Shown here one piece after another: positions 1,441-20,165 of a DNA stretch of 64,000 bases (the first letter of the stretch is position 1; each line of letters starts with the position of its first letter). The notes below the pieces were generated by a model. That model did no database searches, was not told the DNA's origin, and saw only the letters and a program-made list of their open reading frames with translations. The DNA lies in assembly GCA_002005505.1 (NCBI GenBank), contig KV908344.1, positions 150,001 to 214,000 on the forward strand, written 5' to 3'. A program made the translations under genes and the position numbers. This DNA comes from Botryococcus braunii (taxonomy: Eukaryota > Chlorophyta > Trebouxiophyceae).

Positions 1441-3643
1441 TTCTCCTTGCTCTACTTCCATCTGAAGCTTGCCCCGCTTGCAAGACTGAACCTTCCTGTC
1501 TTACGACATCTTGCCCGAGGAGCGTCAAGAGGCTGTCGTGGGACCCTAGTTCTGGGAATATCTTTTTTTAAGCTTTTTATGACCTTTTTCATGCCTTATT
1601 GGGCTCCTAAGAAGCCAGGCAAGCAAGGGGACCTGCTTTCAGGCATGGCCACCCACTGTCTTTTCGAATTCAGGAATTCTACATGCGTGAAGTCGCTTTC
1701 CCACCCTCCATTCCCCAGACTATCTGCTTCTGATGTGGAAATGGACAGCATAATGGCCCCCTTGCTTGCGGAATTCTTTTGTTGTGAAGATGAAGATGTC
1801 ATTCCTGCTCATTTCTCAGTTGTATTTGAGCAGCTTGTTGGCGTGTTTCATGGGCCACAATTCTTGGTCTTGGATAGGGCCATTTACAGGCTGCCCTGTA
1901 GATTTGTGAAGACTTCGGAATTTCTTTCCTGGCACCGCAAGTTATGGCAAGCAGTGCTTTTTTGTGCGCCATCCATTCATTCCTTCACCTTCTTATGACT
2001 TTGTCGATGCATCGGCTTCTGCAAAGATAAGAGGTAGGTCACCTTTGTGCCCTCTACAGTTGGCGCAGTGCTCATGTTTGAGTGCGCAAAAGTGTTTCTC
2101 TTTTTGTGCATAAAGTGAATCTCTTCTAGTGCATGAAGTGATTCACTCCCCCGCTTGCTTTACATGACTTGTGTAACTGAAATTTCATCTCTGTAGGGGT
2201 GAATGTCACCCCGCATTGTGTGCTTAAAATTATGGTACGTAACATTGTGTAAGGGGACTCTTCCCGATCGCACAGGCCCTGCCCCCACTAAGATGTGTGC
2301 TATGAAACTGCCTCCTGGCACTAGATGCGATTAATGGGACAAGCCCTGGTTTGAAATTAGCGTCCTGTTTGTGTCTCTGCTCTGGGGAGCATGCGCTCGG
2401 GCTTGCGTCTATCTTTGCAAGGATGCTGTTCTTGGCACCATGTATCAACTCTGGTCAGGATGAGATGTGTGTCATTCCGAGGACCCGGGGTCAAAACAAG
2501 GAGGAAGGTCGGATTGACCCATCGATGGACTGGACAACCTTCATGACGTCTGGCGTGACGGCGGACTACTTGAAGCATTGTCTCACCACTTGCTTTTGCA
2601 AGAAGTCTGCACTGGCTCTGGCTCTATGTTAGCCAGGCAGCACGCCGTTTCGTCTAACATGGGTTTGGCAGCCCCCTTTCGATCCACCACAGCTACGCCA
2701 AGGCTAGCGTGGTGGATTGACAGCCACTAGAAAACGCATTGACTCTCTTCCATCAGCAATCAGCCTCGAGGAGCACCTCTGTTGAAGGGATTTTGGGGGC
2801 GTCCAAAGCCCCATGGATGTGAGGGTGAAGCACATCATCAGAAAACTTCTATAAGGATGATGTTGCAATCCTTCACGCCATCTGAGGTTCTAGTGAACTT
2901 CGTGGTTGTTGACAGTGCAAACGGGCTGCAAAAAGGAGTGGCCCACCCTAGACTTATTGGATCGGCATCATGGAGAAGACTACCAGATTAATGTTTAGTA
3001 ATGTTGAGCATCACCGCACGGCACGCCACCGCGTGAGTGCTGCGCAACTTACATGCAGGAATGCTGCTGGTGCATCCCTACAGTGGGGTTCATCCGCGAA
3101 CGCACACCTCTGGAAAAAGTTGTAGCCTGCCTTCTTTCGATTTTTGTTGATGGTATGCAAGTGTGCCTTGCAAGGGCATTGCTAGATTCGGTCAGGCACA
3201 TACAATATTGGGGTTTGTTAATAAACCCCGGTGTGATGAGTCGTCTTACTTAACAGTGAGGTGCAGGCAATCTTGAGGTTTGTGCGTAAAGTACGATGAA
3301 ATATCAATGCGGTTCCTTTCGGAAAGATTCTGTGTTGACGAATTTTTATGTACATAAGGATCATTCTACAGGCGGCCAAATTGAGTCTGGGGGCTGTACA
3401 CTAGTGTACGTATACCAATGTGCTGTACATTCATATGCCAGTGGGCACACTGGTGCAATATGGTGTACACCACATTTGGGGGTATAGCATGTTAGTGCGA
3501 TGTCTTCCATAGTACTACTCGTTCTTTACCGTCACTACGACAGGAACTGCCATTCATGTGCTGTTGATGTAATGTGCCGTCATTACAAAACAAGGAATTT
3601 CTCGTTTGTTCCTCTGTCGCCCTTTGGAAACGGGTTTTCTTTT

Positions 3644-3663
3644 GGGGGGGGGGGGGGGGGGGG
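3644..3663. repeat. Homopolymer G20
   Basis: Twenty consecutive G residues; length may be unreliable because such runs are hard to sequence. It can form quadruplex structures. Confidence 0.9.
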
Positions 3664-4309
3664 CATGGCTCCTGCAAGGCTTTCAGTGGGCGCCCTGCAA
3701 GATTGATGGGGGCCTCGAGGGAGCTCCCCCACCAGGGACGTATTGGAGGGATACATGCCCAATTGCTTGCAAGCAGCAAAAGGAAAGGAACAGCCTCCCC
3801 CTGATGAACCGCTATTTTAGCTTGCACCACGTGCACGTTCCCCCGCGTATAAGTAGCGATGAGTCGGGCCTCCATATATAGAGGCTTATAAGCTGTTGAT
3901 CGCCTGCAGGCTGCTTGCCGGGTGGGACTCGTAGCTTGAGCGTTTGGAAGTTTCAATTACAACCGTTCACGACACCACCCGATGAACCAGCCCTAACTAA
4001 TGCTGGAAACCGAACTCTTCACCCCACAAAGGCAGCCTCGTAGCAAGCTGCCGACCCACCGCCCGAGCAATAGCAAAACTCAAACGCCGAATCTTCGAAA
4101 ACCAGACCAACTCCTCAAGTGGAATATTGGGCCTGACCCACAACCCCCTGCAACCTAGAGAGCAACTCAACAGCATCCGCATGAAGCCCTCCAAAAACAT
4201 CAAAAGCGAAGGGGTGGAGGATAACATGCGGCGTTGATGTGTCATAATGTTCCTATAAGCTTAAGGGCAGCGCTGCTTAAGGTAGCCGCCCGAGCCACAG
4301 CTCGCCCCG

Positions 4310-4330
4310 CCCCCCCCCCCCCCCCCCCCC
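4310..4330. repeat. Homopolymer C21
   Basis: Twenty-one consecutive C residues, complementary to the G run at 3644-3663. Confidence 0.9.
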
Positions 4331-5196
4331 AACGGACTAAAAATCCCCCCGATACCAGAAGGCCAGCGGGGAGCCGCAGGGACTCCCACAACTCGTGGGA
4401 GGGACCCGCGGAAAGTGTGTTTTTAGTGATTTTCCGAATTATTTAATATGGAAAATCTGGGTGTGGCGAGCCAATTTGTCAAGCAGTGGCAAATCTATAT
4501 ATGGCACGAAATTACATTTACACTGGCCACTGTGAAAAATACGGCCCCAATGCTAACTTGTGGACATGCCAACGACATCCGAGAGCTTTTAAGCAAAAAG
4601 CATTCGAGCAATTGCATTGAGAGTAAATTCCAGAACAATTGTACTAAGAGCATTTCTGCCGATGTCGGCTCCATGCATAATTATAAACGCGAACACGACT
4701 GTGTTCATAGGCATATGAGTCTAACACTCATCATGTGCTTTCGCATCACTCAAGAGTTGGCACGTACATCTTCTGCATAGACCCTGCTCAAAATATCTGT
4801 GTCAAAGGCAACGGCAGCCGTTCTCTTCTTGCTGTTAGCTGTAAAGCTAAATTTAGCTGTCAGGCCCCGACGATCTTTGTTCTGCAAGAAAATTTCCAAA
4901 GCCTTCTGATACGGAAACCCGTCAATTGTGTACCTTGATGTGAAAAGCCTCACGGTGGCGTTCAAATACTTTTTCAACCAAAAGGAATCCTAGTTCTAGA
5001 TACCCTGGCTGAGGCCGGACCGGACAGTCTAGGGGATAGTCTAGTGAGAGCGCCCCTGGCTCAGGGCTTCTGACTCAGAGGACCGCAGATCTCGTTGCGT
5101 GGAGTTGTACTCAGAATGATGTTAAATTGGGAAGTCACGGCAAACATATCAACATGCCACTTTGGCAAATTTGGACGTGGTTGATTTATTTTCCAG

Positions 5197-5236
5197 TTGC
5201 CACCATGTACATGTTGCCACATGTACATGGTGGCAA
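5197..5236. repeat. Perfect hairpin, 18 bp arms
   Basis: Arms 5197-5214 and 5219-5236 are exact reverse complements (arm TTGCCACCATGTACATGT) around the 4-base loop TGCC. The surrounding DNA is AT-rich and has a second hairpin just downstream. Confidence 0.9.
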
Positions 5237-5296
5237 ATCCGGTTCATTTCAAATTCTTTTTTGATTGCCAAAATGGCGAGTCGACTCAAAAAAATG

Positions 5297-5361
5297 CATA
5301 TGTATATATATAACTTTGAGACGCACAGACGTCGGTGCGTCTCAAATTTATATGTATATGC
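5297..5361. repeat. Imperfect hairpin with perfect 12 bp inner stem
   Basis: The inner arms TTTGAGACGCAC (5315-5326) and its complement (5335-5346) are perfect. They extend outward imperfectly through AT-rich GCATATGTATAT-type sequence. It may be a small foldback element. Confidence 0.7.
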
Positions 5362-5504
5362 CACTTTTTGGGCTCAAATTCAAATAAAATTTTAATGTTT
5401 AATGTTTAAACAGCCATTTTGGACTCAACTTGGGCTCAAATTCAGTTAAAATAGCCATTTTGGTAAACAATTCCCACTAAGAACACACTGGCGGGGACCC
5501 TTCG

Positions 5505-5604
5505 CAGGGACCCTGCCTAATGCTTGCGCAGGGCTTTGGAGGGTAATCTCGGGTGAACTGTTCGGTCCCCCTGGCCTGCGTGACACTCACGGTCCGTGAA
5601 TCAC
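5505..5604. repeat. Palindrome-rich segment, inverted relative of 47177-47330
   Basis: Contains CACGGTCCGTGAATCACGG, a cluster of complementary CACGG/CCGTG steps, followed inward by LINE-B. The reverse complement resembles the DNA just outside the other end of LINE-B (shared blocks CCGTGA, GGCCAGG, GACCGAA, TTCACCCGAGA). LINE-B is therefore flanked by inverted related sequences, as if it landed inside a foldback or long-TIR element. Confidence 0.45.
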
Positions 5605-5610
5605 GGATGA

Positions 5611-5880
5611 CTCCCATATATAGCATGGGAAGACCTTACTAGAGCTTATCGCAATCTCGGTTGCAACATGTCAATGATGCTCATGACAGAACTGTACTTA
5701 GCTTTCCTACCACCCCTCATCTCCTTTGGATGTGAAGTCTGGGCATTCAGATGCTTTCAAGGCAGACAATTGTCGTCGGGATCACCTAGTAGTATACGAG
5801 TTTTGGGTGCGCACAAGCGGGGCTTAGCTCAGATTTTGGGGCTGCGTCGGACAATCCCTGAGGGAAATAATCAATAGTGA
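5611..5880 (+). pseudogene. LINE-B relic, piece 1: C-terminal part of reverse transcriptase ORF2
   Basis: Translation gives WEDLTRAYRNLGCN, then MTELYLAFLPPLISFGCEVW and a short tail. This aligns position by position with the post-RT region of intact LINE-A (WSSLMRKYGNLQCA, then LILMCVVPTASYACEIW, 39670-39790). The 5' end is truncated near 5611 and the right end is interrupted near 5880 by unrelated DNA. This is the left-most piece of the LINE into which the whole transposon nest was inserted. Confidence 0.7.
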
Positions 5881-5929
5881 ATTAAACATATTTTCTTTGT
5901 TGTAACGGTCTCCTCGTATTGCTGTAGTC

Positions 5930-6640
5930 CAGGGTTGCCGCTAAAACCAAATTATTTGGCGCGCCTTTGCCAAATTAATTAATTTACGCGCATTTAGCCA
6001 CCACCTCTAATTTGGCAAAGGCTGGCCAAATTCCAGTGCCGTACAAAGCAGTACAAAAGCATTAGTGATGTACTGCACGTGCTGCTCGTACCGGATCCAT
6101 CCATGACAGTCGTTTTGCTCCCTCCCGCGCACATAAGTTTGAAACAATCCACCGCAAACACATCAAGTTGGCACATTTATGTTAATATCGAACTAGATTG
6201 GCATGGCGTCAAGTTTTTTTCTGATTCTGTAGATGAAATGTCCGGGGGGGAGTAGGATTGGCTTAAGATCCTACTCTCCGGAGGGGAGAGTAGGATTGTC
6301 TTAACCTTTCCAAATTGTGCCCAGATTGCAGAGAAAAGCATATATGTAACAATTGTGAGCTCTTGTGATTTTTGCCTGCACTGGTCATCCTTGTAAAACA
6401 TTTTGCATTGCAAGGCAAATTTGGCACATGTAGTTTTTGCAATATATCATGGTCCTGTTCAGTTTTTGTTGGCAGATAATGGAACAGGCCGATAGAGCTT
6501 TGAAAAAGGAGTCGATTGGTGCCTTCAAATGAATTTTTGCCAACAATGTCGAATAAAGCCAGGTGAAAAACAAGTTGTGCAAAATATTTGGCACATTTGG
6601 AATTAGCAATCGGAGTTCAATAATAAAAGCGGCAACCCTG
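5930..6640. mobile_element. Small element with 13 bp terminal inverted repeats, hAT-like ends
   Basis: Ends CAGGGTTGCCGCT at 5930 and its exact complement AGCGGCAACCCTG ending at 6640 face each other 711 bp apart. The CAGGG start resembles hAT-type termini. I could not find an 8 bp target duplication and there is no transposase frame. If it is an element, it is an old non-autonomous copy. It lies in the gap between LINE-B pieces 1 and 2. Confidence 0.4.
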
Positions 6641-9194: not shown

Positions 9195-11567
9195 TTAGAT
9201 TGATGCTCGGATGCGCTGACGTGTTGCATATTTCTCGTTGAGATATCCATGATAGCAAAATGACCCAAGTTGTGACGGCGGCATGCGGCACACCTGGTCC
9301 TTGGTCATTGACCCTGGAATAAGTTCTTGTACTTCGCCCTTGCTGCAAGGTACTTTGTAGGTGTTGTTGTCGGTTGCTGCGTGTTGGGGAGGTGATTCAG
9401 AATGCACCGCATTTGCGGCATCACCGTTGTTGATCAGGGACCCTTGGTCCATGAGTATAGTTGCGCAGGGCTGAATTGCTCGTGCCGCGGCTCCTTGCTT
9501 ACGTATTCCTTCCAAATCCAAACTCCGACATGCCAACGTGATACTGCTTTGGCTGAAGTCCTTTAGAGCAAGCTTCTTATCATGCATGGTCTTCCTTCGT
9601 AGGGAGGTTGCATCCTTTAGCATTCTACCGGTGGTGATATAAGCTACTTTAAACCTTTTCAATGCGGGCAATACTATTCCTTTTCTAAATATTTCAACAA
9701 GTCTTGTGGGAATTCCAAACACTCTAGGTAAAACACTACAACATTTGTGCGTCCAGCCTAAAGAAGGCATGGCACTCCCAGTACTATCATGTGGGGCACT
9801 TTTAAAGTGAACTGGTTCTAACATAGAACACATTACTTTTGCTGACGCGAACAGTGGGCTGAAGTGGTCTGAGTATATTATGTTGCATAAATTCTCTTGG
9901 GCGATGCACGAGCGAGGGCTCGTGGGTGAACTTGATGTATTGTGACTACTGTTAATCTGAGGCTTCTGCATACTATTTACTGCGTGTTGAAGGTGATCCG
10001 GGGAATGCTCATCCCGGGATTGCGTCGGTAGACGTAAATTAAGTACTTCTGATTGTACTGCGGCAGACTTAGGCTGCATGGGAACTCCCGTTAGACTTTT
10101 GTCCTGGTGTACCACTGCTTCTGCAGGGACAGCGATAAGGTGCGGCAAGCCGAGGTCTATCCTATGATGCATCAAAGTAGTACGTTGCTGCGTAATGCCA
10201 GGGGAAAACACATCCCTGTACTCCTTAACAAGTCCAAGGGTGCGATCGCGCTCCTCGGGTAAAATCTTGGTCCCCAGGGGAACATCTTCGGGCTCAAGGT
10301 GGTCTGTCTCTTCTTCAATTATTTGGATGTCTGGCAATTTCTGTAGGCCGGGGTCTTCAGTCAAGTTGGGTGCAGGGGTCTTCACAATCATCACCGGCCA
10401 ACGGGTAGGCCCCACACGCATGCAAGAAGAGCTGGGGGATCGTCCCGGGGCTGTAAACATCTGCACTCCTGGAGGATATTGTCGAACGATTTGGAATTTC
10501 TCCATTACTATCGGAAACCATGTGGCTTCAGGCCACCAGGGTAAAACAAGGACGGCTGACGTCGTGGTTGGGCTGCTATCATAATATGTGAGGCAGTGCT
10601 GCACAATCTCCATTGCTTTTGAAAGAGGTGGGTTGCAGTAAATGTTCTTGTGGGTCCAATCTTGCTTTAAACAGTCTTGCTGGGGTGTCCAAAAGTAAGG
10701 CAATTGAGAGTTGCGGCCTTCCTGATCGCAGCAAGCGTCAAGGTCAAATGGGCCGAATTGCTCCTCAATGTCTTTGAATATATTCTTTTCTAGCATCCAA
10801 TCTTCGGTGTTACTCGTTGAAGGCGGCGAGAGAGATGGTCCCTCTGCAAGGGTGAGGTCGGCGGTGGTGGAATTTAAAAAGCCTACTTGCATTGCTTGTG
10901 GCTCCTCAATAAGGTCAGGGTATTCTTCCACAGATGATGAACTGGCAGTCTCTCCACTACTGACTTCTTCTTCGCTTGAATCCTCGGGCGCAGAGGTGTC
11001 AGAGGCGCTCTCGTCGAAATAAATTACTTCTGGCAGTGCCGGTACCTCCGGTCCCTCTTGGTCTCCCAGGTTCCTAACGGGAGCTCGCATAACACAATAA
11101 CGATTAAAAGTCTTATCAGATGGCAGTACTGTTATAGGGACTTTCCCAATGAGGTTAGGGTCTATTTTATAAGACATTTCTGACTTTGCAAAGCTGATTT
11201 CTGCGTGGGCTTGGGTAAGCCAATCGGTACCCAGCAGTACATCGTAGTTCGTCGCTCCACTAACAAAAACGTCAATTGGGAATATCAATCCATCAACACC
11301 TACTGGTAGCTTTCTAATTATGCCCCATGGGGCAGACATGTTGCCATCAGCACATGAGTACTTAAGTCTACAAGGCTCGATCTGGTTAAGCATGCCCAAT
11401 TGCCTAGCTGCCGATTGCGATATCATGGTATTTGTTGCTCCTGTGTCGATAATTCCTTCCTCAAAGATAGTATTGTTAAGAATAATAGGGACTGTGGCTA
11501 CAGTGGTGCTGATCGGGTTGCGTTGCAGATGCTGTTGGACTCGCGGTGCCTCCGGCGTATCGCTGGC
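9195..11567 (-). CDS. Element 3 polyprotein, second half: retropepsin, Dam-like N6-adenine methyltransferase domain, unknown C-terminus
   Basis: This continues the gag frame across the Copia insertion. With Copia and one target duplicate removed the frame is open for 1283 residues. In order: an aspartic protease with active site IIDTGATNTMIS (near 11430-11462) and the flap-side string YDVLLGTDWL; an acidic Ser-rich linker; then a block from about 10805 to 10350. That block has FDLDACCDQEG, TPQQDCLKQDW, YCNPPLS and VLVLPWWPEATWF, the layout of phage-type Dam-like methyltransferases. Motif IV reads NPPL, whereas active enzymes usually have an aromatic residue after PP, so activity is doubtful. 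Next comes a pre-RT-like string (EYRDVF, then HHRIDLG), after which similarity stops. About 300 unrecognised residues follow with no YxDD motif. Confidence 0.7.
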   Translation of the reverse strand, partial: ASDTPEAPRVQQHLQRNPISTTVATVPIILNNTIFEEGIIDTGATNTMISQSAARQLGMLNQIEPCRLKYSCADGNMSAPWGIIRKLPVGVDGLIFPIDVFVSGATNYDVLLGTDWLTQAHAEISFAKSEMSYKIDPNLIGKVPITVLPSDKTFNRYCVMRAPVRNLGDQEGPEVPALPEVIYFDESASDTSAPEDSSEEEVSSGETASSSSVEEYPDLIEEPQAMQVGFLNSTTADLTLAEGPSLSPPSTSNTEDWMLEKNIFKDIEEQFGPFDLDACCDQEGRNSQLPYFWTPQQDCLKQDWTHKNIYCNPPLSKAMEIVQHCLTYYDSSPTTTSAVLVLPWWPEATWFPIVMEKFQIVRQYPPGVQMFTAPGRSPSSSCMRVGPTRWPVMIVKTPAPNLTEDPGLQKLPDIQIIEEETDHLEPEDVPLGTKILPEERDRTLGLVKEYRDVFSPGITQQRTTLMHHRIDLGLPHLIAVPAEAVVHQDKSLTGVPMQPKSAAVQSEVLNLRLPTQSRDEHSPDHLQHAVNSMQKPQINSSHNTSSSPTSPRSCIAQENLCNIIYSDHFSPLFASAKVMCSMLEPVHFKSAPHDSTGSAMPSLGWTHKCCSVLPRVFGIPTRLVEIFRKGIVLPALKRFKVAYITTGRMLKDATSLRRKTMHDKKLALKDFSQSSITLACRSLDLEGIRKQGAAARAIQPCATILMDQGSLINNGDAANAVHSESPPQHAATDNNTYKVPCSKGEVQELIPGSMTKDQVCRMPPSQLGSFCYHGYLNEKYATRQRIRASI

Positions 11568-12255
11568 TGTTGTGTTAATTAATTTTATGCCTTTCCCTCA
11601 GAGGAGAAATAATGGCAAGTCTCCGGATGAGGACAATACCAATTAGGAAGGAGAGGCAAAACTCTGAGTTCTGCCAGGCAATACATGCATTTGAACGAAG
11701 ACTATCATAACGCAAGTTACAGACACGTTTGTAGAAAGGAGGCATATGGGGCAAGCACGGAGAGGGAAGGCACTTGATTGGAACTATAGCAGCACTCCGG
11801 GTGTCTATCAATCAGTTGCCAACCAGTCCTTGACTTGTATATGTCCGTGCCTACTTAACAACGCACAAGTAGGAGGACATCGTCTAACACCCTCCGTGCC
11901 GCCACCATGCAGGTGACTTAACCCTTATTGTATTCCTGGATTTAGCACTCAGATGAACATTGTTAGAACAAGCTAGACATATGGAGTTGAGTTTAGCTCA
12001 TCGGACAAAGTAACGAGCATGACCTGAGTGAGAGCAGGTTAGGCGTGTTTGAACTGCGTCACCTTATTAGGAGAGATGAGAGGGAAGGCACTTGATTGGA
12101 ACTATAGCAGCACTCCGGGTGTCTATCAATCAGTTGCCAACCAGTCCTTGACTTGTATATGTCCGTGCCTACTTAACAACGCACAAGTAGGAGGACATCG
12201 TCTAACACCCTCCGTGCCGCCACCATGCAGGATACGCCAAGCCCAGAATATTTCA
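11568..12255 (+). repeat. Copia 5' LTR
   Basis: Starts TGTTGTGTTAATTAATT and ends CCCAGAATATTTCA, matching 17994-18681. Inside it a 154 bp segment occurs twice (11760-11913 and 12078-12231). Confidence 0.95.
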
Positions 12256-12277
12256 GGTTATGGGCCCACGGGCTCGG
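12256..12277 (+). promoter_or_regulatory. Copia primer-binding site matching the anticodon arm of initiator tRNA-Met
   Basis: Directly after the LTR comes GGTTATGGGCCCACGGG. Its complement contains GTGGGCCCATAACC, the conserved anticodon stem-loop of eukaryotic initiator tRNA-Met, including the CAU anticodon. Drosophila copia is known to be primed by a cleaved 5' half of the same tRNA. There is no CCA-complement TGG at the LTR edge, as expected for half-tRNA priming. Confidence 0.75.
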
Positions 12278-12323
12278 ATGCTGAGAGTGGGTGGCGCCTA
12301 AATCGGAGCTCACTAGACTGTGA

Positions 12324-12521
12324 ATGGCGAAGAAGCGAACAAAGCAAACAGCCAGGAAGACTACCAACCTCAACGTCCCAGCGCGCTTGAGATCAGGACC
12401 TCCGTCATACAACGAACTAATCAGAGAAGGAGGACAACGTGGAGACCGCAATCCTGGCGAGAGAGCCTTTATCGTCAAAGACTACATTTTTCACCTTCAC
12501 GTTGGCTGTCCGCTAGAGTAA
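12324..12521 (+). CDS. Copia leader ORF, 65 residues, starting with a histone H3 tail-like sequence
   Basis: An ATG 47 nt after the primer-binding site opens 65 codons beginning MAKKRTKQTARKTT. Histone H3 begins MARTKQTARKST, so the match is the eight residues RTKQTARK plus the initial MA and a following T, with two extra Lys after MA. The remainder (rich in Arg, Gly, Asn and Pro) does not resemble a histone fold. It is in the same frame as gag, but two stops (TAA at 12519 and another about 35 bases later) separate them. Its position in the genomic RNA leader makes it an upstream ORF. Whether it is translated is unknown; the identity of the tail string is directly visible. Confidence 0.5.
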   Translation: MAKKRTKQTARKTTNLNVPARLRSGPPSYNELIREGGQRGDRNPGERAFIVKDYIFHLHVGCPLE

Positions 12522-12572: not shown

Positions 12573-15500
12573 ATGACTTCCAAGAAGAAAGGATCATCAG
12601 CTAGTGGAGCATCAACGTCAAGCAGTGAACCAGCCTCATCCACGCCCATCAGAGAACCATGTACTCCCAGCACCTCAAGAGGCAGCGGAGATGAGCTGCC
12701 CAAGATTATCCCAACAAATGTCAAGGTACACATAAAACTGAAGGAACGGGGGACAAATATTATTGTTTGGAAGAATGCATTTTTGGCAGCAAATGAGTCA
12801 AAAGGGTCTCTGCCTGCCATCCTGGAGGCTATGCCTGGTACAGCACATGATGCAGCCGCAATGTTGCTGATTTATGAGTCAGTTCCAGAGGAATGGCTGG
12901 GACCTCTGTCTAATCTGCCCTCTGCCTATGATGCATATGAGTTCATCTGCAGAAAGTTTATTGGTGGATATAATATCCAGGCCAATGCAGACTGGCTCCA
13001 AGAAATGAACCAGGGAATGAAACATGACGAGACGATATCGCAGTATGTCAACAGAATGATCAACCTGAAGGCATGCCTTGACAGGAACAACCATGCTCTA
13101 CTGGATGCACACGTTGCAACCCAGATTGTGCAGGGCTTGCCTGATGCAGCTAAAGAGCCAGGAATGATCACAACTGCTGCAGCACAACCCCTGGAGAAGC
13201 TGGCTGGACTTCTGCGCAACACAGCAGCGGCAGTGGGTTTTGATGAATATGCTCCTCGCCAACCAAGGGTTTTGGCTCTTGGACAAGGCTCCAGTGGAAC
13301 CAATACCCCACCAGCTGCCAATGCAGCCCATCAGCAGGCCCAACCAACTGTCTCTGAGGCCAAGTCCGAGACAAAGGGCATCTGCAACTACTGCAATAAG
13401 AAGGGGCATTACTGGAGGGACTGTCGAAAGAGGAAGCGGGACGAGGAGACCCAACGGAACGTAGTGGCAGCGGTCCAACAACTGCAGGGAATGTGGCTAC
13501 AGGGACCTCCACCTATGGGTGGCCCACACCCTCCTGCAGCCCAGCTGGCGCACCCTGGACTGGATGCCTTTCCTGCATGGTTTCAACCCCCAGCTCCCCC
13601 ACCTCCACCACCTAGAGGTATGCCATACATAATTTCCCTCAACATCCTGAAGACTCCTGTCAGAAATTCGTCTCTGCAATCCTGGCTGGTGGACAGTGGA
13701 GCATCTGTACATCTGGTGAATGATGTGACCTTGCTACATAATCCAACTGTGCATGCCAAACCCATCCCATTACATCTGGCCACTTCAGATGCCACTGGAG
13801 GAATTGTAGCATCTGGCTCTGTCTGCATCCTCAGTCGAGTGGGAGTTCCCTTGTGGATACATCATGTTCAGTGTGTTCCTTCTGCAACCTCAAACATACT
13901 GTCAGTATCTGCAGCATTGCGGGATGGGGCAGTCTTTCGCACAGATGATGTTGGAGCATTCACTGAAGTCTGTGGTCCAAACAGCTGGAGGTCTCGGATC
14001 AGTGCAGAGAAAGGGCTATTTTACATTCATCAAGTTGTAGCTCTGAGTCCCAGTGTTAACCACAGAATCATCTCGGCTGCTGTGAAGTCCAAAACCCCCA
14101 CCCAAAACTCACACAACTGTGCCAGACGATACCTCTGGCATAGCAGAATGGGACATCCAGGTGAAACATGGATGCAGCGCCTAACCAATGAGGACCTGGT
14201 CTCAGGACTTGATACATCCCTATGCCCCTGCTCCAATTGTCCAGTCTTCTGTGAAGCATGTATTGAGGGAAAGACGTCTCGGCCTCCATTTGGAGTAAGT
14301 AGTAGACCAGCTGTTGAACCACTTGACAGAGTACATATTGACACTGTGGGCCCCATTTTTCCTGCTGCAGTAACTGGTGAACGTTACTGGGTGACTGCTT
14401 TGGATGAGTCATCTCAGTTAAAGGCAGTCCTGCCTGTGAAGTCCAAAGATGCCATCAGTGCTGCTGTGCGGGACCTCCTTCTATATTGGCAGACCCAGAA
14501 GAAAACCAAAGTGAAGTGTGTCCGATGTGACCGTGGAACTGAATTTCTGAATGCCACGTTCAAAGAATTTTGTGCATCCCAGGGGACTACATTGGAGACC
14601 TCAGCTCCTTACACCCCGCAACAGAATGGAGCAGCTGAAAGAGCCAATCGCACCCTCAAGGAACGTACCAGGACTCTTCTGGCTTTTGCAGCTGCCAGTC
14701 CAACGTTGTGGAAGGAGGCCCTGGAAACTGCCTGCACCCTACTGAACATGGGTCCCAGTACCGGGAGGGACCGCACGCCATCAGAATTATTTTTTGGCTA
14801 CAAACCAAATGTAACCCCATTGCGTACCTGGGGTTGCTTGGCCTTTGTGCACATCCCTGATGTCCAGCGCTCTGTGTTTTCCCCCAAAACTGTGCCAGGG
14901 ATGCTTACTGGTTACTCAGCCTCCTCCAAAGCCTATCGGATATATGTGGGAGGGGGTATCTGGAAGGAGAGCAGAGATGTGGTTTTCGTAGAGCACCTCA
15001 GGGGAGCCTCTCGGGTTGGCATGAGTGCTTCCCCAACACAGCCTACAGAGTTCCTGTGTCCTGAGTCCTCTGCAAGTGACACTCCCCCAGTCTTTCCCGG
15101 TACCTCCCCTGACACAACCAACATCAGCCTTGAGACAGATCTGGATGACCCACACAGTGAGCCTGAGTACCTGCCAGCCTCCAGCAACCTCCCCACACAG
15201 CCTGTCACAGGACCCCCCAGGGAGGCTGAGCCCGAGTCTAAATCCAGAAGACTGTGTGACCCAGTGGAGATGGATCAAACCCTGGAGGCAGTACAGGACT
15301 TAGCCAGAGGAGTGAGAGGGGACTCCCACCTTCGACCACAGATGGAGCGAGCCCAGGAGGTCTTCAGACCAACTAGGTCTGAATGCCGCAACCACCAATT
15401 GGATGGCCTGACCCGGGCCCAACGACACGAACAACGCATTGCCGCCAAAGACCTCCTGCTGCCACAGGAGAAGGGAGAGAGCAGAGAGCGAGAGGGGTTG

Positions 15501-17975
15501 ACTGAAGGTGACTCTCTGTCACAGGGACCAGGGGAAGTGCAGCTAGAGGGTGATTCACATGAGGGGCATGAATTGCATGTGAGTGCAGTGAGGGGGGCAG
15601 CTACATGCAAAGCTGCAAATGGTCCCGGGGAGCTGAGCAGCATGGGTGGGTCCTGTTCAGTGATTGAGAGAAATGTAAGAGATGTGACCATGCAGAGTTC
15701 TTTTGGCAACCCGTCCAGTCAGAGCACTCCTGGACGGGACTGTGGTGGCAGCCACCGGTCAGAGGAAGCATCATATGCTCCCTCTGCACCAGCCAAACAT
15801 GATTGTGAGCGGGAGACAGGGTCTGCATCCTTGACTCCGTGTAAGGGACGAGAGGAGGAGGTGAATCAGGAGCACAGACATTGTGGAGACAGACCAAATT
15901 ACAAGTGCTCACTGAGAGGTACCTGTGCCTGGGAGAGTGATGTCAGAGATGTGAGGTCACTCCCAACAGTGACATGCAGTCGGTCTGAGAGGCATGTGGA
16001 TCACGTGAATCAGGGGAAGTATGCAGACACTCTGCCATATCCCGATGTTGTTTGTGAGAGACCTGAAGAGTCTGAACTCTTGCAGGCATGTCAGAGTGTG
16101 TCCGAGGAGGTGAATCGGACGTCTGGACAATGTGAAGGAAATCCAAATTACAAAGACTGTCCGAGAGGTACCTGTGCATGGGAGGATGATGTGAGGGATG
16201 AGCAGAGTAACTTGTGCAAAGCCAAGTGTGAGTCCAAGCGAGAGCGTGCTATGAGAGTGCATTCTACTCCTACTGGAGAGCCTGTGATGTGTAACTCAGC
16301 GAGTGTCAGTGGAAGAGTAGTGGGTTCTGGACAAAGTGAGGGAAAATCAGGCAATACAAAGGAAAAGCACACAGGTGTCAGATTTGGGAAAATTCACGTT
16401 CCCTCTAATTTGAGAGAAGCACAGATGTCTCCCCAGTGGGAATACTGGAAGGCAGCTATGCAGGAAGAGCAAAATTCCCTAGATACTCATGAGGTCATGG
16501 AGTATGTGCCAAGACCTCGTGGACATAAGGTTATTCCAGTTCACTGGATATTTTCAGTGAAAATGGATGCACATGGCAATGTGGTGAGATTCAAGGCCAG
16601 ATTAGTGGCACAGGGATGCAGACAAATCCCTGGAGTGGATGTGATGGAGGTTTTTGCTCCTACTAGTAGCTATGGAGCTAGAAGAGCTCTGCTGGCCGTT
16701 GCTGCAAGAGAGGGCTGTGAAATTCATCAGGTAGACGTTAAGACCGCCTTTCTGAATGGTGAGCTCGAGGAGGAAGTATATGTAACGCAACCTCCTGGCT
16801 TTGAGAATGGGGATAAGCATATTGTGTGCCGATTGAGAAAGGCGTTGTATGGCCTGAAGCAGGCTCCACGTGCCTGGCACAAAACCCTGAATGACAAACT
16901 TGAAGTCATGGGGTATGAGGTGTGCAAGAGTGATGCGGGAGTGTATGTGAGATGCTCTACTGATGGAGGAAAGTCCTATGTGCTGATCTATGTTGATGAT
17001 CTTCTGATAGTTTCCAAGGGTATGTCAGAAATCGAGAGAGTGAAGGGACTCCTCAAGAAAGAGTTCACCATCCATGATCTTGGAGAAGTAAAGGATTTCT
17101 TGGGATGTCAAGTGATGAGAGATAGAGATAAAGGGCTGATCACCCTGAGTTGCATCCCTAAAATCGATGCACTTGTAGAGAAATTTGGCTTGGATCTTGA
17201 GTCAGTGGGACCTGATACTCCCATGACAAAAGATTTCGTAATGTCCCAAAGGCCTGCACCGAGAGATGGGAGCGACAGCATTGGTGCTGGCAGTCCACTA
17301 CCTCCAGGTCACCGTTACTGTGAGTTAGTAGGGTCTCTTCTGTATATAGCCAACACCACACGTCCCGACATAGCTCAAGCAGTAGGTGTATTGTCTCGTT
17401 ACCGCATATCTCCCGCCACAGCACATTGGAATGAAGCCATCCGTGTGTTGAAGTATCTGAAAGGAACCCGAGATTTGGTTCTAACTCTCGGAGGGGGGGA
17501 GATAGAGCTAGAAGGCTATGTGGATGCCGACTATGGAGGTGATCAGGATCATCGCTTCTCTACCACTGGCTTTGTCCTCACTGTGTTTGGAGGAGCAGTG
17601 GTGTGGGGAAGTAAAAAGCAATCTGCTGTTGCCACTTCAACAGTGGAGGCTGAATTCATGGCAGCAAGTGCTGTTGTAAAGGAAGCAAATTGGCTGAGAG
17701 GTTTCCTGGAGGAAATTGGAGTGTTACCGTGGATAGTGAAGATTCATTGTGACAACCAAGGGTGTATAAACCACCTGAGGAATCCGGTGTACTCCAAACA
17801 CACAAAGCATATTGCAATTAGCTGTCACTTTGCCCGTGAAGCTATTGCAAAGGGGCAGGTTGAATTCAAGTACATTCAATCTGCTAGAAATGTGGCTGAC
17901 ATTTTTACCAAACCACTAGTTAGACAAGTGTTTCTGGGACATCGTAACTCACTGGGACTGGCCAAGTTTCTGTGA
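12573..17975 (+). CDS. Copia Gag-Pol polyprotein, 1800 aa, intact
   Basis: A single ORF starting MTSKKKGSSASG, with domains in Copia order. Gag comes first, with CCHC knuckle CNYCNKKGHYWRDC at about 271-284. Protease LVDSGAS has its active Asp at about 374. Integrase has a HSRMGHPG-type zinc region near 522 and a catalytic triad of about D590, D653 and E689 (35 residues between the last two). Reverse transcriptase YVDDLLIV has its Asp pair at 1475-1476. RNase H begins near D1651 (VDADYGGD). Copia polyproteins are usually about 1300-1450 residues; the excess lies in an integrase-RT linker (roughly 880-1280). This linker is acidic, Ser-rich and holds two copies of a Cys-containing module (1095-1127 and 1178-1210). 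The ORF ends with TGA just before the polypurine tract. Confidence 0.95.
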   Translation: MTSKKKGSSASGASTSSSEPASSTPIREPCTPSTSRGSGDELPKIIPTNVKVHIKLKERGTNIIVWKNAFLAANESKGSLPAILEAMPGTAHDAAAMLLIYESVPEEWLGPLSNLPSAYDAYEFICRKFIGGYNIQANADWLQEMNQGMKHDETISQYVNRMINLKACLDRNNHALLDAHVATQIVQGLPDAAKEPGMITTAAAQPLEKLAGLLRNTAAAVGFDEYAPRQPRVLALGQGSSGTNTPPAANAAHQQAQPTVSEAKSETKGICNYCNKKGHYWRDCRKRKRDEETQRNVVAAVQQLQGMWLQGPPPMGGPHPPAAQLAHPGLDAFPAWFQPPAPPPPPPRGMPYIISLNILKTPVRNSSLQSWLVDSGASVHLVNDVTLLHNPTVHAKPIPLHLATSDATGGIVASGSVCILSRVGVPLWIHHVQCVPSATSNILSVSAALRDGAVFRTDDVGAFTEVCGPNSWRSRISAEKGLFYIHQVVALSPSVNHRIISAAVKSKTPTQNSHNCARRYLWHSRMGHPGETWMQRLTNEDLVSGLDTSLCPCSNCPVFCEACIEGKTSRPPFGVSSRPAVEPLDRVHIDTVGPIFPAAVTGERYWVTALDESSQLKAVLPVKSKDAISAAVRDLLLYWQTQKKTKVKCVRCDRGTEFLNATFKEFCASQGTTLETSAPYTPQQNGAAERANRTLKERTRTLLAFAAASPTLWKEALETACTLLNMGPSTGRDRTPSELFFGYKPNVTPLRTWGCLAFVHIPDVQRSVFSPKTVPGMLTGYSASSKAYRIYVGGGIWKESRDVVFVEHLRGASRVGMSASPTQPTEFLCPESSASDTPPVFPGTSPDTTNISLETDLDDPHSEPEYLPASSNLPTQPVTGPPREAEPESKSRRLCDPVEMDQTLEAVQDLARGVRGDSHLRPQMERAQEVFRPTRSECRNHQLDGLTRAQRHEQRIAAKDLLLPQEKGESREREGLTEGDSLSQGPGEVQLEGDSHEGHELHVSAVRGAATCKAANGPGELSSMGGSCSVIERNVRDVTMQSSFGNPSSQSTPGRDCGGSHRSEEASYAPSAPAKHDCERETGSASLTPCKGREEEVNQEHRHCGDRPNYKCSLRGTCAWESDVRDVRSLPTVTCSRSERHVDHVNQGKYADTLPYPDVVCERPEESELLQACQSVSEEVNRTSGQCEGNPNYKDCPRGTCAWEDDVRDEQSNLCKAKCESKRERAMRVHSTPTGEPVMCNSASVSGRVVGSGQSEGKSGNTKEKHTGVRFGKIHVPSNLREAQMSPQWEYWKAAMQEEQNSLDTHEVMEYVPRPRGHKVIPVHWIFSVKMDAHGNVVRFKARLVAQGCRQIPGVDVMEVFAPTSSYGARRALLAVAAREGCEIHQVDVKTAFLNGELEEEVYVTQPPGFENGDKHIVCRLRKALYGLKQAPRAWHKTLNDKLEVMGYEVCKSDAGVYVRCSTDGGKSYVLIYVDDLLIVSKGMSEIERVKGLLKKEFTIHDLGEVKDFLGCQVMRDRDKGLITLSCIPKIDALVEKFGLDLESVGPDTPMTKDFVMSQRPAPRDGSDSIGAGSPLPPGHRYCELVGSLLYIANTTRPDIAQAVGVLSRYRISPATAHWNEAIRVLKYLKGTRDLVLTLGGGEIELEGYVDADYGGDQDHRFSTTGFVLTVFGGAVVWGSKKQSAVATSTVEAEFMAASAVVKEANWLRGFLEEIGVLPWIVKIHCDNQGCINHLRNPVYSKHTKHIAISCHFAREAIAKGQVEFKYIQSARNVADIFTKPLVRQVFLGHRNSLGLAKFL

Positions 17976-17993: not shown

Positions 17994-18681
17994 TGTTGTG
18001 TTAATTAATTTTATGCCTTTCCCTCAGAGGAGAAATAATGGCAAGTCTCCGGATGAGGACAATACCAATTAGGAAGGAGAGGCAAAACTCTGAGTTCTGC
18101 CAGGCAATACATGCATTTGAACGAAGACTATCATAACGCAAGTTACAGACACGTTTGTAGAAAGGAGGCATATGGGGCAAGCACGGAGAGGGAAGGCACT
18201 TGATTGGAACTATAGCAGCACTCCGGGTGTCTATCAATCAGTTGCCAACCAGTCCTTGACTTGTATATGTCCGTGCCTACTTAACAACGCACAAGTAGGA
18301 GGACATCGTCTAACACCCTCCGTGCCGCCACCATGCAGGTGACTTAACCCTTATTGTATTCCTGGATTTAGCACTCAGATGAACATTGTTAGAACAAGCT
18401 AGACATATGGAGTTGAGTTTAGCTCATCGGACAAAGTAACGAGCATGACCTGAGTGAGAGCAGGTTAGGCGTGTTTGAACTGCGTCACCTTATTAGGAGA
18501 GATGAGAGGGAAGGCACTTGATTGGAACTATAGCAGCACTCCGGGTGTCTATCAATCAGTTGCCAACCAGTCCTTGACTTGTATATGTCCGTGCCTACTT
18601 AACAACGCACAAGTAGGAGGACATCGTCTAACACCCTCCGTGCCGCCACCATGCAGGATACGCCAAGCCCAGAATATTTCA
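17994..18681 (+). repeat. Copia 3' LTR
   Basis: Same length and sequence as 11568-12255, including the internal 154 bp duplication; followed by target duplicate CTGGC. Confidence 0.95.
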
Positions 18682-20165
18682 CTGGCTGAGGGGCTCTCGG
18701 AGGTGTCACTAGAGATTACTACAAGCTCTGACTCCGCAGCTCTTGGCGGGGTTGAAGTGGTTTGCTTGCTTCGCTGGAATTGTTGGCGGGACGCATGTAG
18801 CTCTTGGATGGATCTTTGAAATTCCTCCTCACTAATATGATTCAAATAGGATTGTACTGTCAGCTTCATAGGTAGCCCTTTAATTTGTTGGATAGGCTCG
18901 CTGGAAGGGGCTGGCACAACTGGTGGTCTTCGGTACGCCGGCCGGGGAGGATCTGGAAGTGGTGGCAGTCCCCCTAAGTCGACTGGCGGGCGCGGCGCAG
19001 GTGCCCTCCTAGGAAAAGCAGGTACTGGGGCTGGCGTAGGAGGTGCAGCAGTTGAAGGATTATTTCTTGGTGCTGAAGGTTCATTAGGCCCTGGGGCAGC
19101 TGGCCTATTTGAAGATCTGGGGTCCACAGTGGTGTTTTGCACATTATTAGGCCGGCGGCGTAGCAATGGCTGATCCAATTCAGGTGGATTTTCGGCTGGT
19201 CTTTTGGTGGCATAGACGGGGAATGGGTCAGTAAACCCATCATACATCATCCTTACTTGGGGCTGTTCCTCCTCGGCTGGGTCCTCATGAAACTGAGTAA
19301 AATTAGCGGCGGGCATGGGCCTCTGTAATTCTGCAATTTGGATTCTGAGTCTCTCCATTTCTCTGGTAAGCGTATCTATATCGGTTGCGGGTGGCGGAAG
19401 AGGTGCCTCCCTAGGTGGGTTAGCTGGTGCAATCTGTCTTGGCGGTGCTGCTGGTTGCGGCTGATTACGCCTCTCGGGGAAATCTCGCTGACGCGGCCAG
19501 TTTCTATTTTCTCTGTTATCTCTGTTGTTCTCCCTTTGATTTTGCTGCTGCGGCGCGTGTGGCGCTCGCTGATCCACATTGTCAATCGGGCGGCGAGTCC
19601 AAGGCTCACTTCTCTCGCGTGCTGGTACTTCTGTGTTTTGATTAACGTACATACCTCCTAATGGTGCATGCCCAAAGGTCTGTTCATAGTTTGCAGCCAA
19701 ACGTATTATGTCGGCTAACGCTCCATTGCCGGGGTAGGTCATCTGTACTCGCTCCCTAAGATGGGGAACTAAGCCTTTCACAAATAACTGGGTCACCATC
19801 CTGGGTGGCAGAGAGTTCTGCAAGTAACCCACTAATTTCCTGTATCTGTCAGCGTAGCTGCGAACGGTCTCATTTGACAATTGTGCACATGTGTCTAACT
19901 TTAACATAAGGGTGTCTTCATCAAGGCCAAATCGTTCAAGAAAGGCCTCTTTACAGTCATCCCAGTCATGTATATCATCTTGATTTGCGCGGAACCATGT
20001 GTAAGCCTCCTCGCGCATGGCATGCTTAACAAAACGTAAAACCCGATCACCCACTACTTGGTTGATCTCAAGAAAGAGTTCAAAAGACTCTAACCACTGA
20101 AAAGGGTCCTCTGTAGGCTTTCCATAGAAAAATTCCAAACGTACTGGGGCTTGTATGTCTGCCAT
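18682..20165 (-). CDS. Element 3 polyprotein, first half: Gag
   Basis: Starts at ATG 20165 (MADIQAPVRLEFFYGKPTED). Residues ~10-165 fit the retrotransposon gag fold: QWLESFELFLEIN, ESF and WFR motifs, and a DWDDCKEAFLERF-like helix. A long Pro/Arg/Asn-rich region follows, with an EMERLRIQIAEL coiled-coil-like segment. No CCHC zinc knuckle is visible. The frame runs into the Copia target duplicate (18682-18686). If Copia is ignored it continues without a stop into the protease at 11567, so the ORF was open when Copia landed. Confidence 0.75.

Follow-up and report, generated by a model that had tools for sequence, protein, structure and literature searches.

The window (the whole 64-kb stretch of DNA analysed) contains a Copia retrotransposon whose leader region carries a short open reading frame (ORF) that begins like histone H3. 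The Copia context of this ORF is confirmed by the long terminal repeats (LTRs), the target site duplication (TSD), the primer-binding site (PBS) and an open gag-pol reading frame:

11563..11567, no strand: left copy of the TSD, CTGGC, matching the right copy
11568..12255, plus strand: 5' LTR, 688 bp, identical to the 3' LTR at every position
11760-11913 and 12078-12231: 154-nt direct repeat inside the 5' LTR
12225..12284, plus strand: 19-codon upstream ORF gccgccaccATGc, starting in the LTR, crossing the PBS in the frame of ORF1 and ending before it
12256..12268, plus strand: PBS GGTTATGGGCCCA, directly 3' of the LTR
12324..12521, plus strand: ORF1, shortened form of 65 aa (full form elsewhere 166 aa)
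12324..12365, plus strand: H3-like tail MAKKRTKQTARKTT, in which RTKQTARK equals H3 residues 2-9
12516..12517, plus strand: junction of the 303-nt ORF1 deletion, with TAG at both ends in the full form
12573..17975, plus strand: open gag-pol ORF of 1800 aa in Copia order
17994..18681, plus strand: 3' LTR, 688 bp
18682..18686, no strand: right copy of the TSD, CTGGC

The element has the characters of the Ty1/Copia group, namely LTRs with a short TSD and an integrase encoded before RVT_2 (rve at residues 582-682, then RVT_2 at 1307-1551, of 1800 aa). It is very young, as its 688-bp LTRs are identical and flanked by CTGGC. The PBS presumably fits the anticodon arm of the initiator Met tRNA, i.e., half-tRNA priming as in Drosophila copia. 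Drosophila copia and Ty5 are both Ty1/Copia elements with a half-tRNA primer; the window element is like them in its LTRs, the type of its PBS and the placement of integrase before reverse transcriptase, and unlike them in having the additional ORF1 between PBS and gag. The same position is occupied by an ORF1 of 174 aa in two further elements (L117 and L118), which share GGTTATGGGCCCAC with the window element at the PBS, and across nine loci from both clades described below ORF1 starts 58-68 nt past the start of the PBS. The start context of the 19-codon upstream ORF is one that we take to be strong; its ATG is present in L118 and absent from L117.

The ORF in the window translates as MAKKRTKQTARKTTNLNV... 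(65 aa) and is an internally deleted derivative of a conserved leader protein, ORF1, which in its full form of ~160-175 residues is encoded ahead of gag-pol by a large Copia family of the trebouxiophyte green alga Botryococcus braunii. The longer ORF was found in four of the 20 loci read (L057 and L059-L061), with 166 aa where it is intact and a stop codon in L057. Compared with L061, 303 nt are missing from the window form and 283 nt from the form in L058; the two deletions share their 3' end point, within the 3 nt left open by a TAG repeat, and in both forms the H3-like tail is intact and residues 1-64, at least, remain. The shared 3' end immediately precedes the ORF1 stop codon, the L058 junction lies 213 nt into ORF1, and each of the two deletion forms (that at 12516/12517 and that of L058) is present in many copies. 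The initial annotation, made on the window alone, was correct in calling the element an intact, recent Copia copy, given the identical LTRs, the CTGGC duplication and the open 1800-aa gag-pol. A reading of this ORF as the whole protein is not supported; the window copy derives from a 166-aa ORF by deletion. Its placement of the ORF shortly after the PBS stands, while its figure of 47 nt varies with the choice of PBS end, the distance from the first PBS base to the ORF start being 68 nt (12256 to 12324).

The layout of full-length ORF1 is a short H3-like N-terminal tail, a linker, a helical body and an acidic end. A search of one full protein (P0003) against Pfam, at E values up to 10, returned no family, including the histone fold PF00125. 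The relation of ORF1 to its surroundings varies between copies. The frame upstream of it is open for ~20 residues, with no Met, in some copies with Met at position 9 (L098-L103), and in L093 an in-frame Met lies nine residues ahead of the tail. In L117, whose 300-bp LTR stretches are mutually identical, ORF1 and the gag start lie in one frame, parted by a lone TGA followed by C (1301-1319), and readthrough from ORF1 into gag is conceivable there from the sequence. A single copy has ORF1 sequence (C565:65086-65376) within a 1821-aa open frame, possibly an ORF1 fused to gag-pol.

The genome searched comprised 176 Mb in 989 contigs. With the window ORF as query, the best 40 of 767 candidates in the DNA search were all 99-100% identical, and the best 150 of 740 candidates in the protein search were 98-100% identical and all lacked internal stops. 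This near-identity (98-100% among the places scored) indicates that the insertions are recent. More of the diversity was seen with a query from the C-terminal part of ORF1, for which the best 150 of 504 candidates spanned 100% down to 49% identity. A protein query of the type with Met at position 9 gave 145 matches from residue 1 and 140 stop-free matches, by our reading of the table, among the best 150 of 798. In the protein collection, an ORF1 profile had 13 matches (eight Botryococcus gene models, three JGI and two ENA sequences), and a search with full ORF1 matched Botrbrau1 gene models, one of which is letter-identical to an ORF of the genome searched (P0002). Repeats are reported to make up 43% of the Botryococcus B race genome, with LTR elements predominant (PMC11286282).

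Host H3 begins MARTKQTARKSTGGKAP, and the RTKQTARK of the window ORF is identical to its residues 2-9, so the eight-residue identity with the H3 tail that was first noticed in the window agrees with the host's own H3. By base composition over six frames, RTKQTARK would be expected 6.7e-6 times per 64-kb window and 0.018 times per 176-Mb genome, an expectation weakened by the post hoc choice of the motif. The tails fall into two clades, named here for the residue at H3 position 9. Tails of the K9 clade, which includes the window copy, are exemplified by MAKKRTKQTARKTT, MAKRRRPKQTARKTT and MAKKRRTKQTARKTT; their MA is followed by an insertion of two or three residues, and the residues at H3 positions 2 and 3 differ between rows. 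M9-clade tails include MARTRQTGRMSTGG, MARTRKTGRMSTGY, MARTRQSGRMRSGT, MGRTRQSGRMGSGS and MGRTKQSGRMSTGGKRP, with Gly as residue 7 in seven of eight rows. Two metagenome relatives have the tails MARRRQTARRNP and MTHHRQTARRSP, with Arg at position 9. When all of these are compared, each of H3 residues 1-14 is present in one clade or the other.

Of the 13 positions that follow Met, the M9-clade tail MARTRQTGRMSTGG shares 10 with H3 and MGRTKQSGRMSTGG shares 9, each with a shuffle p of ~5e-6, which is the floor of the test. The other nine tail rows tried had 5-8 matches in 13 (p from 0.00007 to 0.011), the weakest single M9 row being L098 at 0.011. H3 residues R2, Q5 and R8 are nearly invariant in a 34-row ORF1 alignment, whose rows were selected by requiring M[AG][RK] as the in-frame start, a criterion that favours an early R/K and not Q5 or R8. 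The K9-clade rows and the two metagenome rows are just 39-43% identical to L111, and tail residues R2, Q5 and R8 are still kept. One divergent relative, L096, has no recognisable H3-like tail.

Position 9 is Met, preceded by Arg, in all 21 M9-clade loci from the two fetched sets, one of which was found with a tail-containing query and may favour tail-keeping copies. An extra copy, fetched because it lacked Met, has Ile there (L125; C179:95249-95383; MARTRQSGRI, MARTRQSGRIRAGA), giving Met in 21 of the 22 copies read. Genome-wide, the pattern M[AG]RT..Q.[AG]R occurs at 221 places, 214 of which (97%) continue with ATG, and a reversed-pattern control gave none. The seven non-Met places include, among the matches listed, three canonical H3 genes, one unrelated-looking start, the copy with Ile (C179) and a fragment that leaves the ORF1 family before position 9 (C64; L124). 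For the K9 clade, 359 places encode KQTARKTT, with six DNA versions among the 100 listed and none for the reversed-pattern control; by construction, this search pattern admits little beyond synonymous versions. The totals of 359 and 214 count copies and not independent events, and the independent evidence is at the level of subfamilies. Met with Arg at -1 in the substrate position is the K-to-M trap feature, and it is found in the M9 clade; the window copy has Lys and not Met at this position, and the feature is absent from its clade.

Of the 40 loci in the two fetched sets, 28 entered the alignment. L077 was left out because the coordinates used had truncated it and L099 because it looked identical to L098, and ten loci were without a start, frame or readable tail (L085, L086, L088, L089, L090, L092, L096, L097, L104 and L105). 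Within these ten, KQTARK is still seen in L088, L089, L090 and L092 and the M9 tail in L097, L104 and L105, while the tail of L085 is shifted and none is seen in L086 or L096. Constraint was counted on eight of the 11 K9 rows and eight of the 17 M9 rows, a selection made by eye so that different subfamilies were represented. For the tree, L113 was dropped as a near copy, and P0013 and P0009, the latter a gene model without the tail, were added.

For the eight codons of the K9-clade core, KQTARKTT, pN was 0.026 and pS 0.671 over eight rows, and three of 128 body windows were as low. The sole amino acid change in this core is R8G in L079. The M9-clade core (pN 0.091, pS 0.640, eight rows) was no lower than 25 of 141 body windows, and the block as a whole shows no unusual constraint compared with its body. 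Single residues in these eight M9 rows are steadier: R2, T3, R8, M9 and G12 are unchanged, R8 with four codons, and Q5 varies once. The body of ORF1 has a pN/pS of 0.30 and 0.28 within the two clades, evidence that ORF1 is under selection as a protein, and synonymous sites between the clades are near saturation. Taken together, the specific H3-tail sequence is kept beyond chance, the case being weaker for the M9 core block and for M9 rows taken singly. In a tree built from the body only, the M9 rows are split from the rest with support of 100/100, and the Botryococcus K9 rows group at 99/98 with the two metagenome rows (98/85) beside them. This tree was drawn with a midpoint root, so it does not prove a direction of change from K to M; this direction is the simpler reading because H3 itself has K.

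The nucleotides of the tail were compared with four host H3 genes. The window's RTKQTARK codons match at 18-19 of 24 positions, where random synonymous codons have a mean of about 18; L111 matches at 21-28 of 42 (random mean 25-28) and L095 at 27-29 of 42. As the tail is no nearer to host H3 than random synonymous codons would be, a recent capture of an H3 gene is not supported. Convergence would fit the sequences, as would a capture in the distant past after which the protein stayed under selection for a long time. Elsewhere in the genome, two divergent H3-like genes were observed, one starting MARTKQTARKSVGGNRP (L042; C224) and one with an H3 core and unusual upstream sequence (L053; C256).

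On balance, these results lend partial support to the interpretation in the initial annotation. Its check, a look through other copies for stops, frameshifts or random substitutions in RTKQTARK, comes out mostly on its side: the KQTARKTT core of eight K9 rows has one replacement (R8G, L079) beside many synonymous changes, with the reservation that some copies are broken. Its suggestion that a host H3 fragment had been captured could now hold for an ancient event, the nucleotides giving no support for a recent one. Conservation of the tail goes further than it anticipated, in that a second clade keeps a longer resemblance to H3. This M9 clade lay outside its view and alters the likely mechanism.

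We propose that ORF1 is a retrotransposon-encoded mimic of the H3 tail that engages the host H3K9 methylation machinery and blunts silencing, a proposal to which we give about an even chance and in which we infer translation, binding and effect. A Botryococcus Copia lineage would have a protein of its own in ORF1, encoded between PBS and gag, and the tail of ORF1 would act on host enzymes and readers of the H3 tail near lysine 9. To judge from its sequence, Met in place of lysine 9 suggests a decoy against the silencing machinery. In the K9 clade, including the window copy, the intact KQTARKTT may occupy H3 enzymes as a decoy substrate or H3 readers as a ligand. M9-clade tails, with Met in place of Lys and the neighbouring Arg kept as in H3K9M, may lock H3K9 methyltransferases into a dead-end complex. 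The outcome in either clade would be an element that, when expressed, is silenced less strongly, and the helical body and acidic end may aid oligomerisation or help the protein to reach chromatin. An initiator Met before Ala or Gly is normally removed, which would leave the M9-clade proteins with A/G-R-T as their exposed N-terminal residues, a feature of H3 as well. That the lineage maintains an H3K9M-like 'oncohistone tail' as a natural inhibitor of H3K9 methyltransferases, with the unmutated tail of the sister clade as a decoy substrate, is a more specific idea that we regard as possible rather than probable.

Several published observations bear on these ideas. According to PMC5030085, H3K9 methylation is dominantly blocked by H3K9M, which traps Clr4 and binds G9a together with SAM, and residues 3-12 of the H3K9M peptide are visible in the crystal. 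The M9 clade is like this histone in that its Met occupies the substrate position, follows Arg and lies between H3-like flanks; it differs in that ORF1 is a retrotransposon protein in which K4 is usually Arg and A7 usually Gly, and its trap activity is putative. For G9a, PMC8541646 describes Arg before the lysine as essential and a hydrophobic residue such as Ala as preferred ahead of that Arg; the Gly at residue 7 of the M9 clade departs from this preference and counts against the proposal. In the green alga Chlamydomonas, H3K9me1 counts as a repressive mark (PMC7722844). As for the enzymes of the host itself, a search for Pre-SET gave no match, and the controls were likewise without a match; the one host SET match that was classified resembles H3K36 enzymes. 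Also weighing against the proposal are the unexceptional constraint on the M9 core block, the weak H3 match of some single M9 rows, the insertion after MA and the variable positions 2 and 3 of K9 tails, the Arg of the metagenome relatives, the tailless L096 and the upstream Met of L093.

Another parallel is EZHIP/CXORF67, which like ORF1 is a non-histone carrier of a K-to-M H3-like peptide: PMC6513997 describes inhibition of PRC2 through a K27M-like peptide in which Met or Ile both work. The Ile at position 9 of L125 has a parallel in the inhibitory Ile at K27 in that study (PMC6513997). EZHIP differs in copying the K27 region, near its own C-terminus, and in being a host gene of placental mammals (PMC12842176), whereas ORF1 copies the extreme N-terminus of H3 around K9 and belongs to a mobile element. 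Influenza NS1 and SARS-CoV-2 ORF8 (PMC10208167) resemble ORF1 as parasite proteins with a short H3-like motif; those motifs span about four residues, against ~ten to fourteen from the start Met, kept across clades, in ORF1. Mimicry of the H3 tail by ORF8 is contested (PMC10833455). The VANC proteins of Arabidopsis VANDAL transposons are an example of transposon-encoded anti-silencing, shown for VANC and proposed for ORF1, but VANC acts sequence-specifically, and H3 mimicry is unmentioned in the portions of PMC10398659 and PMC5735166 available.

Three other explanations deserve consideration. The tail could be a ligand of H3-tail readers (chromodomain, PHD, Tudor or similar), with ORF1 tethering to chromatin and steering the integration complex to chosen chromatin instead of countering silencing. 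The methylatable ARKT kept in the K9 clade, the many near-identical recent insertions and the housing of ORF1 and gag-pol in one element would all suit such a role; we nevertheless think it unlikely, given that position 9 of the M9 clade cannot be methylated and that fission-yeast chromodomains left an H3K9M peptide unbound (PMC5030085). Nuclear import or histone-chaperone mimicry, in which importins or chaperones would use the basic tail as they do that of H3 and bring ORF1 or the particle into the nucleus, is in keeping with the basic K9-clade starts (MAKKR/MAKRRR) and the acidic C-terminal end of ORF1. It appears quite unlikely in view of the M9 clade, where T3, the R8-M9 pair and G12 are invariant in eight rows and Q5 varies once, and where the first 14 residues have just three or four basic ones. 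Incidental resemblance, i.e., that the basic disordered N-terminus of a nucleic-acid-binding accessory protein looks like H3 by chance, could draw on the post hoc choice of RTKQTARK and on the lack of nucleotide closeness to host H3 genes, but is very unlikely for a match that begins at the initiator Met, that one clade extends to STGGK and the other to KQTARK, and that rows with about 40% identity still share.

Histone mimicry in viruses and K-to-M inhibition in tumours and EZHIP are already known; a full-text search of open-licence papers found no report of an H3-tail-mimic retrotransposon protein. If the proposed engagement of H3K9 methylation is true, ORF1 would be an anti-silencing weapon of a kind absent from the results of that search, a mobile-element H3-tail protein with Met at the lysine-9 position in one clade, and the element would be fighting heterochromatin with a copy of the very peptide on which heterochromatin enzymes write. 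Short peptides and purified SET domains would then allow a direct test of retrotransposon spread in a silenced genome, and the ORF1 tail could yield a natural H3K9 methyltransferase inhibitor.

Some further features of these elements were observed. An internal LTR direct repeat of ~150-160 nt at a spacing of 318-330 nt, as in the window, is also present in the two M9-clade elements (211-362 and 541-692 in L117; 184-341 and 512-669 in L118). The M9-clade Copia element L118 contains, at 2906-6100 on the minus strand, an apparent Gypsy-type retroelement (labelled by eye) inserted in reverse. In the window, a 97-nt stretch occurs twice in the integrase-reverse transcriptase interval of pol (15855-15951 and 16104-16200, 75% alike) and encodes a repeated RGTCAWE..VRD peptide. 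Finally, a 743-aa ORF on the minus strand (9195-11426) ends beside the Copia insertion, inside what is apparently another retroelement; its FGPFDLDACCD...YCNPPLS sequence is reminiscent of phage-type adenine methyltransferases.
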